Of a stretch of 64,000 nt of DNA, positions 10,062-32,372 are shown one piece after another. The notes under the pieces are model-generated. The model had not been told where the DNA came from. It made no database searches and saw only the letters and a program-made list of their open reading frames with translations. The position numbers were made by a program, and so were the translations under genes. Every line of letters begins with the position of its first letter. Position 1 is the stretch's first letter. The DNA comes from Carboxydothermus hydrogenoformans Z-2901 (GTDB lineage: Bacteria > Bacillota > Z-2901 > Carboxydothermales > Carboxydothermaceae), in NCBI RefSeq assembly GCF_000012865.1, contig NC_007503.1, positions 372,001 through 436,000 on the forward strand, written 5' to 3'.

Positions 10062-10784
10062 TTGAAATTTTATTTGGATGAAGGGATTGTGTTAAAGGGT
10101 AGTGACTTCGGTGATGGCCACCGAATGTTGACAATTATAACGAAAGAGCTGGGAAAAATTAAAGCGGTGGCTTACGGTGCAAAAAAGGTAAAAAGCAAAA
10201 AGCGGGGAGCGTTACTGGAATTCAGTCGGACCAACATTTATTTGCGGCAAAGTAACGATTATTTTATCGTTGAGCAAGCGGAAGGCATAGAGTATTTTCC
10301 CAATCTTTATGGAAATAAAGATTTGTTACATGCGGCGGGGCAAATTGCGTGGCTGACGGATCGCTTTTGGCCTCTGGGGCAACTTAACCCTAAACTATAC
10401 AATTGGGTTTTATATAGTTTACGGTTACTAAATTCGGGAGTTTGGCCCAAAATTGTGTTAAGAAATTTTGAATTAAAACTTTTGGCTTTTACCGGCTTTA
10501 GACCTATAACCACTCACTGTGCCGTTTGCCGCAAACCTTACCGGGGTGAAGTATGGTATTTTGGAGCTGGGGAAGGAGGAATTGTCTGTCCTTCCTGTAG
10601 GCCCATAGAGGGGATTTATTTTGAAATATTTCCGGAAGTGGTAAAAGGGATGAACGCCTTACTTCTTGCTTCACCGGAAAAGTTACCGGAACTTTTATTG
10701 GATGAGCGGGTAGTGGATAGAGTTAAAACCATCTTGGAATATTTTTTGGGTTATCAATTGGGTGAGCCAATAAGACTTCTTTAA
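10062..10784 (+). CDS. recO: DNA repair protein RecO
   Basis: A 240-residue protein with the RecO N-terminal OB-fold opening ([20 protein letters not shown]) and a zinc-binding C-terminal domain ([11 protein letters not shown]...CPSCRP, about residues 150-180). RecO works with RecR and RecF to load RecA at single-strand gaps. TTG 10062 is chosen because AGAGGGATGG precedes it and the family normally starts a few residues before EGIVL. The gene stands directly upstream of the glyQS T-box leader, as in several Clostridia-like Firmicutes, but glyQS has its own promoter. Confidence 0.9.
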
Positions 10785-10785
10785 C

Positions 10786-10814
10786 TTGACTTTTTTCTTA
10801 GGCTTTGGTAAATT
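10786..10814 (+). promoter_or_regulatory. Promoter of the glyQS T-box transcript
   Basis: TTGACT (10786-10791), exactly 17 bp, TAAATT (10809-10814), with TG one base upstream of the -10 (extended). It starts within the end of recO and fires into the T-box leader. Confidence 0.75.
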
Positions 10815-10837
10815 ATTTCACAACAAATTAATAATGG

Positions 10838-11062
10838 ATTGGCAGTGAACCGGAGGAGTAGCTGTGATTTCCCTTAAAGAGAGCCGGGGGCTGGTGTGAA
10901 CCGGTAGGGATAAACGGTGAAGGCGCCGGGGAGCCGGCAGGAGGAAACCCCAAGGGGAGTAAAGCCTGCAGAGTTTTGAGGTGGGCCTTTTTTGGCCAAC
11001 CAGGGTGGAACCGCGGAAGGATGCCCCTTTCGTCCCTGGCAGCTTGCCGGGACAAAGGGGCT
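10838..11062 (+). ncRNA. T-box leader, glycine-specific, controlling glyQS
   Basis: The T-box motif AGGGTGGAACCGCGG is at 11002-11016. It is followed by a strong terminator: GCCCCTTT plus GTCCC pair with GGGAC plus AAAGGGGC across 11023-11062, and then a T-rich stretch. Stem I is recognisable by AGTGAA near 10843 and by an apical region resembling the Bacillus glyQS leader; in the matching place (TGAAGGC) the glycine codon GGC at 10922-10924 is the likely specifier. Uncharged tRNA-Gly would favour the antiterminator and switch on glyQS. Family knowledge supports the mechanism; the specifier position is my alignment by eye. Confidence 0.92.
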
Positions 11063-11146
11063 TTAAATTTATTAAGGTGTTTGTTTTTATTAGTTTTTCC
11101 AATTTCCAACATCCAACTTCTAATATCTAATATGGGGGTGTTTTTT

Positions 11147-31571: not shown

Positions 31572-31780
31572 CAAGCGAGTAAGCCTGTAAGCCGAGTTCT
31601 GTCGAGGATGACCATCTATCTGAGACCTCTGTCACCAGAGGCCTTAAGCGACCAACCCGGGGACAGAGCGGGCCACTCTATAGTCCCCCTATTTGGTCTT
31701 GCTCCGGATGGGGTTTGCCTAGCCGGACAGTTACCTGCCCGCTGGTGAGCTCTTACCTCACCTTTCCACCCTTACCCTAC

Positions 31781-32221
31781 TGGAAGTTGGAGGTTGGAAG
31801 TTAGAAATTAGAAAAAACCTTATTTCCAATTGGCATATAAGCGATTTATTTTTTTAGCAAGTAATTCATACTCCTTATAAAAATATTGGTAAGTGTTTTC
31901 ATCTAAATAATTTAAATCCTTAGCAAAGTCCAGTAATACTAACACTTCATTACAAGAGCCAAGGCTATTTAAAATAAAACTTTTAAAAGTTAAAATTGAA
32001 CGTTTACGACCAAAGCCTTCCGCAATATTTAAAGGAATTGAAATTACGGCTCTGCGAAATTGACTTGCAAGCTCGTACTGCTCATATTTGGGAAAAGTTG
32101 TTATGATTTTATATATTTCAAGAGCAAGATTATAAGAAGTTTGGTAAACTTCTAAATCTTTAAAGGAGTAAATCATTTAATTTCTCCTTTCCAACTTCTA
32201 ACCTCTCACCTCCAACTTCCA
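31781..32221 (-). other. Protein-coding intervening sequence inside rnpB
   Basis: This 441-nt insert has perfect 14-bp terminal inverted repeats, TGGAAGTTGGAGGT (31781-31794) and ACCTCCAACTTCCA (32208-32221), with further imperfect complementarity inward (TTGGAAGTTAGAAA against TTTCTCCTTTCCAACTTC). It encodes one S23-family protein. Intervening sequences of this type are known within 23S rRNA genes, where RNase III cuts them out and the rRNA stays in pieces. I know of no report of one in RNase P RNA, but could not search. Confidence 0.92.
31820..32176 (-). CDS. Four-helix-bundle protein of the 23S rRNA intervening-sequence (S23/IVP) family
   Basis: The 118-residue protein opens YSFKDLEVYQTSYNLALEIY and carries the family core SIPLNIAEGFGRK (about residues 48-60) and LGSCNEVLVLLDFAKDLNYL (about 73-92), matching S23/four-helix-bundle proteins. 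ATG 32176 is preceded by GGAAAGGAG, so it is probably translated from the interrupted RNA. Members elsewhere are encoded within 23S rRNA intervening sequences and their function is unknown; the bundle is thought to form pentamers. Here the host gene is rnpB instead. Confidence 0.9.
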   Translation of the reverse strand: MIYSFKDLEVYQTSYNLALEIYKIITTFPKYEQYELASQFRRAVISIPLNIAEGFGRKRSILTFKSFILNSLGSCNEVLVLLDFAKDLNYLDENTYQYFYKEYELLAKKINRLYANWK

Positions 32222-32372
32222 ATAAGGCGGTTTGTTTCTGTGGCACTTTCCTTGGAGTCGCCTCCACCGGGCGTTACCCGGCATCCTGCCCTATGGAGCT
32301 CGGACTTTCCTCAGGGATTTCTCCCCGCGGTCATCCGGCTTACTCGCTTTTATTCAGTTTTGCCACTAAATA

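Follow-up and report, generated by a model that had tools for sequence, protein, structure and literature searches.

Intervening sequences (IVSs) have been described as elements of ribosomal RNA (rRNA) genes. They take the place of helix tips in 23S rRNA, and it is well established that rRNA IVSs are excised by RNase III, leaving a fragmented but working 23S rRNA (PMC4990558). Here, we analyze a 64,000-nucleotide (nt) stretch of the Carboxydothermus hydrogenoformans Z-2901 genome (NC_007503.1, positions 372,001 to 436,000), from now on referred to as the window, in which a comparable element interrupts rnpB, the gene encoding the RNase P RNA. We estimate a probability of roughly two in three that an S23-coding IVS of the 23S helix-45 type has inserted into the P12 helix tip and that RNase P RNA is left in two pieces once RNase III has excised this IVS.

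The closest described systems are the S23-coding IVSs of Coxiella burnetii helix 45 and Leptospira. The element in rnpB shares with them the family of the open reading frame (ORF), its sense orientation, the complementary arms, the replacement of a helix tip and a long stem whose loop holds the ORF. Its size of about 449 nt compares with 428-444 nt for S23-coding 23S IVSs. A period of 7 nt is already known from at least one IVS of the S23 type, that of Coxiella 23S rRNA, which carries heptameric repeats (GACAGAT) before the S23 frame (PMC4990558). The heptad sequence found here is a different one, and the host is a single-copy ribozyme, RNase P RNA, whereas it is rRNA in Coxiella. Further, the ORF in rnpB is under purifying selection and has a good ribosome-binding site, in contrast to the decaying ORF of Coxiella. 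When compared with the traits that characterize rRNA IVSs, the locus shows arms forming a stem at a helix tip as well as sporadic presence, but lies in RNase P RNA instead of rRNA.

Two further systems are similar in part. The ORF-less rRNA IVSs of Salmonella helices 25 and 45 are likewise extended hairpins at a tolerated helix tip with a sporadic distribution, but encode no protein and are confined to rRNA; their counterparts in the present analysis are ORF-less P12 hairpins found in other genomes (G201, G059, G283 and others, see below). Heptanucleotide repeats of the short tandemly repeated repetitive (STRR) type were reportedly described by Vioque in 1997 in rnpB of heterocystous cyanobacteria, where they are also said to be dispersed in the genome. 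The resemblance lies in 7-nt repeats being present both in the genome and in rnpB; STRR sequences are, however, tandem and lack inverted arms and an S23 ORF. Searches of the open literature brought up no account of RNase P RNA interrupted by an IVS or an S23 ORF, a provisional result given that most subscription papers lie outside this coverage. For the genome in question (CP000141), four 23S gene copies have been published, and the part of PMC2672173 consulted reports 23S variation in this species and lists species with 23S IVSs without naming C. hydrogenoformans.

An S23-coding element replaces the tip of helix P12

A single long insert splits helix P12 of rnpB between its two strands (Table 1). 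The first-pass annotation, made from the letters of the window alone, had placed the ORF inside RNase P RNA, and indeed the class A RNase P RNA model (RF00010) runs through the insert and is matched completely (positions 1-367, 294 bits, gathering score 100; cmscan). This is the only rnpB copy in the 2.40-Mb, single-contig genome. One congener (G001) has a filled site and the same 775-nt rnpB, while a second congener (G002) has an empty site in a 339-nt rnpB, the tip GGCGCGAAGCGCC being flanked by ACCGCC and GGTAAGG. Apart from the insert, the congeners have near-identical RNase P RNA cores, and the flanking genes of G002 align on both sides. With one filled and one empty site at a syntenic locus, it follows that the insert replaced a short hairpin tip. 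Some organisms lack P12, and cyanobacteria can dispense with it (PMC2858038, PMC8172020).

In the element, two arms of 7-nt repeats, (GRRRTTR)n, form a near-perfect inverted repeat around the ORF, which lies in the loop in the same sense as rnpB. The arms are built from degenerate heptads (TTGGAAGTTGGAGGTGAGAGGTTAGAAGTTGGAAA on the 5' side, TTTCTAATTTCTAACTTCCAACCTCCAACTTCCA on the 3' side) and lengthen P12 into a near-continuous predicted duplex of about 40 base pairs (bp), from which the ORF emerges as the loop. The calculated energy of the arm duplex is -61.6 kcal/mol compared with -23.7 +/- 3.8 kcal/mol for shuffled sequences (z -10).

Other identities of the locus were considered and rejected. 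A pseudo-rnpB is ruled out by its being the sole copy, by the full model match and by a core nearly identical to that of the congener. A group I or group II intron is ruled out as no intron family was reported by cmscan in the window at gathering scores. An insertion by a homing endonuclease or transposase is ruled out as PF05635 is the sole Pfam family matched, apart from bAvd below threshold.

Table 1. Features of the interrupted rnpB gene (positions in the window).
Feature	Position	Strand	Basis or remark
rnpB, class A RNase P RNA gene with insert	31572..32346	-	RF00010; 775 nt
RNase P RNA 5' part, last bases being the P12 5' strand (ACCGCC)	32226..32346	-	cmscan; three-way alignment with G001 and G002
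Intervening-sequence element, in place of the 13-nt P12 tip GGCGCGAAGCGCC of congener G002	31778..32225	-	three-way alignment
5' arm, 7-nt repeats GAAGTTG GAGGTGA GAGGTTA GAAGTTG GAAA	32177..32225	-	duplex calculation
Shine-Dalgarno-like AAGGAG	32184..32189	-	7 nt before ATG, top of predicted stem
S23/IVP protein ORF	31820..32176	-	118 amino acids; PF05635, TIGR02436
3' arm, complementary repeats TTTCTAA CTTCCAA CCTCCAA CTTCCAG	31778..31819	-	duplex calculation
RNase P RNA 3' part, first bases being the P12 3' strand (GGTAAGGGTG)	31572..31777	-	cmscan; 97.6% identity to G002 over 212 nt

P12 insertions recur in other genomes

Recurrence was analyzed within the phylum of the source genome, using 398 of its genomes and subsequently the class of one of them (G303). 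A pattern search identified heptads directly behind the P12 5' strand in 8 of the 398 genomes, while the reversed control gave 0. P12 of rnpB in G303 holds an S23 ORF of its own, and the search of the class of G303 revealed intact S23 ORFs in P12 of G416 and G417. These three genomes represent three genera of one family other than that of the source genome; two further members of this other family (G386 and G415) possess an ordinary P12. ORF-less heptad hairpins are found in P12 of G201, G059, G283, G185, G035 and G306, adding at least five more genera; rnpB of G035 is split over two contig ends, and G306, whose P12 begins with ACCACC, lies outside the pattern search and was found by another route. 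A divergent version of the heptad insert is present in P12 of G076. P12 inserts that lack an ORF measure from tens of nt to about 180 nt, and those with one reach about 449 nt. Judged from these genomes, insertion at P12 has recurred in separate lineages, and P12 inserts of this kind can mislead RNase P RNA annotation.

Arm duplex z values lie between -6 and -12 for the folded heptad inserts, the exception being the divergent insert of G076 (z -3.9). Between the arms of G303, G416 and G417, 3-7 compensatory pair changes per comparison were counted in the basal 30 pairs, a count that assumes the insertion to be shared by descent.

The initial suggestion that the element can enter RNA genes in general, at an exposed helix tip, holds up for structured RNAs: independent cases are found at P12 of rnpB and at helix 45 of 23S rRNA, and an ORF-less case near the 3' end of 16S rRNA. 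As S23-coding inserts occur repeatedly in RNase P RNA, which is essential and in most cases encoded by a single gene copy, the element is evidently not tied to the ribosome. The 16S case is found in G299, which combines a heptad hairpin near the 16S rRNA 3' end, in what we take to be the helix-44 region from our own reading of the position, with a broken S23 IVS in 23S rRNA.

The encoded S23 protein and its conservation

The reading frame starts with ATG and is longer than expected by chance, as the longest frame in shuffled inserts did not exceed 93 codons in 2000 trials. Its product was originally annotated as an S23/IVP protein with a good ribosome-binding site. The identity was confirmed by matches to PF05635 (23S_rRNA_IVP; E 3.1e-33, 114.6 bits, cut-off 33.8), spanning residues 6-111 of 118, and to TIGR02436 (four helix bundle protein; score 107.8, cut-off 24), and the proposed ribosome-binding site corresponds to the Shine-Dalgarno-like motif listed in Table 1. 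Such a motif precedes each copy of the ORF.

The AlphaFold model of the protein (predicted local distance difference test score, pLDDT, 95.7) has the same four-helix-bundle fold as Xanthomonas XCC0516 (2GSC; template modeling (TM) score 0.92), with the S23 protein 2RLD also similar (TM score 0.80). By analogy to 2GSC, the S23 protein likely forms a pentamer. Two structures of Avd (4DWL and 8UBB), a component of diversity-generating retroelements, rank behind 2GSC and 2RLD in the fold search. Avd shares the four-helix-bundle fold and gives a weak NCBIfam match, but identity is only about 10% and the match falls below the Avd family cut-off. Given the modeled structural kinship to Avd, RNA binding, possibly in partnership with a reverse transcriptase, can be regarded as a reasonable lead but as nothing firmer.

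The reading frame is, judging by its codon substitutions, under purifying selection. Between the source genome (G000) and its congener G001, 5 of 7 coding changes in the rnpB S23 ORF are synonymous, with a ratio of nonsynonymous to synonymous substitution rates (dN/dS) of 0.094 (p 0.004), while comparison of G303 and G416 yields a dN of 0.148 and a dS of about 2, which is near saturation, and a dN/dS of 0.07. Ratios of 0.07-0.09 indicate that the S23 protein is in all likelihood still produced or was so until recently. Absence of the frame from the inserts of related strains, which the first-pass annotation had named together with a lack of expression as grounds for refuting its reading, was not observed for rnpB: frames are intact in 5/5 rnpB S23 copies and broken in 6/13 assessable 23S copies, a tally obtained by reading the loci. 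Between genera, the closest identity is 76% at the amino acid level.

Kinship with S23 proteins of 23S rRNA

A search for the same protein family flanked by rRNA or rnpB parts, suggested at the outset, found such proteins both in 23S rRNA and in rnpB, where they number 5 including that of the source genome. In the related genomes that the search covered, those S23 proteins that are nearest to the one described here sit in 23S rRNA or rnpB, with weaker homologues elsewhere, and the best S23 matches by E-value in the phylum are all located within 23S or rnpB. The insertion position of S23 ORFs in 23S rRNA is presumably the helix-45 region, based on our own reading. Heptad arms of the same type border several of the 23S copies; those in G059 are GGAGGTTAGATGTTAGAGGTTAGAAGTTGGAA ... 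TCCAACATCCAACTTCCAACATCTAACCTCCA. In G082, the S23 ORF within 23S rRNA is broken by further heptad arrays, as if by nesting or repeat expansion.

A maximum-likelihood tree of 42 S23 proteins separates the 18 inserted proteins (13 in 23S, 5 in rnpB) from the 24 free-standing ones with a branch support of 100/99, a split that was never matched when labels were shuffled on the tree. In the best tree, the rnpB S23 proteins are found at two spots inside the 23S clade, which calls for two entries of S23 into rnpB; a single entry is not rejected (approximately unbiased (AU) test, p 0.11). C. hydrogenoformans encodes a second S23-family gene (2364054-2364368), which is free-standing, interrupted by an internal TAA, devoid of heptad arms and placed in a distant free-standing clade; it was considered as the source of the rnpB insert and ruled out on these grounds.

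A proposed two-piece RNase P RNA and alternative explanations

We propose that the element is transcribed within the RNase P RNA precursor, from which S23 would also be translated. RNase III would then cut the long stem as it does in rRNA IVSs, without subsequent ligation, and RNase P RNA would function as two pieces held together by the remaining helices, an arrangement that should be workable because the P12 tip is a tolerant site. We infer excision and the resulting two-piece RNA by analogy to rRNA. The S23 protein would serve the element, by binding the stem, protecting the broken RNA or aiding movement, and would not take part in tRNA processing. The first-pass annotation had suggested that the protein may bind its host RNA or assist in processing it, with translation being coupled to maturation of the ribozyme; in the published IVS model for Coxiella, excision is assigned to RNase III (PMC4990558). 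If so, an essential RNA enzyme, RNase P, may exist naturally in two pieces, and the locus offers a natural test case for whether a bacterial ribozyme can work in this form. The long-standing question of S23 function also becomes directly testable, as the rnpB copies are single, intact and under purifying selection, unlike the decaying Coxiella copy.

Some observations weigh against this proposal. The S23 ORF carries no nuclease or transposase domain detectable by Pfam search, expansion segments of 5S rRNA can be kept and not excised (PMC7812874), and the analogous S23 protein of Coxiella is apparently not expressed, its ORF decaying (PMC4990558). The 5S rRNA precedent would favor retention of the insert in mature RNase P RNA, where it would form a long P12 arm with the loop doubling as mRNA, and it should be noted that P12 is peripheral and length-tolerant, its natural span differing widely among relatives. 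We nonetheless consider retention rather unlikely: near-perfect duplexes of this length (about 40 bp) are typical targets of RNase III, the arms have been kept complementary, and the rRNA IVSs cited in PMC4990558 get excised. The Coxiella precedent, together with the abundance of ORF-less heptad hairpins at P12 and elsewhere, could instead point to a recent insertion in which the ORF is a relic and the heptad hairpin alone matters. The low dN/dS values argue against this, as do reading frames that stay intact across genus-level divergence, each preceded by a Shine-Dalgarno-like motif, making a dead ORF very improbable.

The same conservation might also indicate that S23 has been recruited as a host RNase P factor, binding P12 and aiding folding or stability of the ribozyme at high temperature. 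Strong purifying selection in two lineages, maintenance in an essential single-copy gene and the difference in intact frames between rnpB and 23S copies would all be compatible with such a role. However, its presence is patchy, with P12 empty in the congener G002 as well as in G386 and G415; the 23S copies share the signature residues, so that nothing points to a change specific to rnpB; and the broken rRNA copies sit in multi-copy operons, where decay costs less. Recruitment by the host therefore seems improbable to us. Beyond the excision proposal for rnpB, we tentatively put forward a wider hypothesis, which is possible although we lean against it: S23 proteins and heptad-armed hairpins may form one mobile-element family aimed at exposed helix tips of structured RNAs in general (helix 45 of 23S rRNA, P12 of RNase P RNA and a site close to the 16S rRNA 3' end), giving rise to two-piece RNase P RNA, with the Avd-like S23 placing the element by acting on RNA, perhaps in concert with a reverse transcriptase.

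Heptad repeats outside rnpB

Heptad arrays were detected in 54 of the 398 genomes. They are more common in genomes with inserted S23 (12/16) than in the others (42/382; Fisher p 1.5e-8), an association that is partly circular as the arms themselves are counted. In the source genome, arrays are found in tRNA and rRNA spacers and at intergenic sites; those at 278300-278760 and 1392800-1392950 lie between clustered tRNA genes and between 23S and 5S genes. Inside the window, the region at about 10750-11130 (genome 382750-383130) holds a T-box-like leader and, downstream of it, a heptad array just before the start codon of a glyQ-like gene; no T-box was reported there by Rfam at the gathering score. 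G336 contains 184 heptad matches, far above any other genome, and may harbor an active or runaway dispersed repeat.
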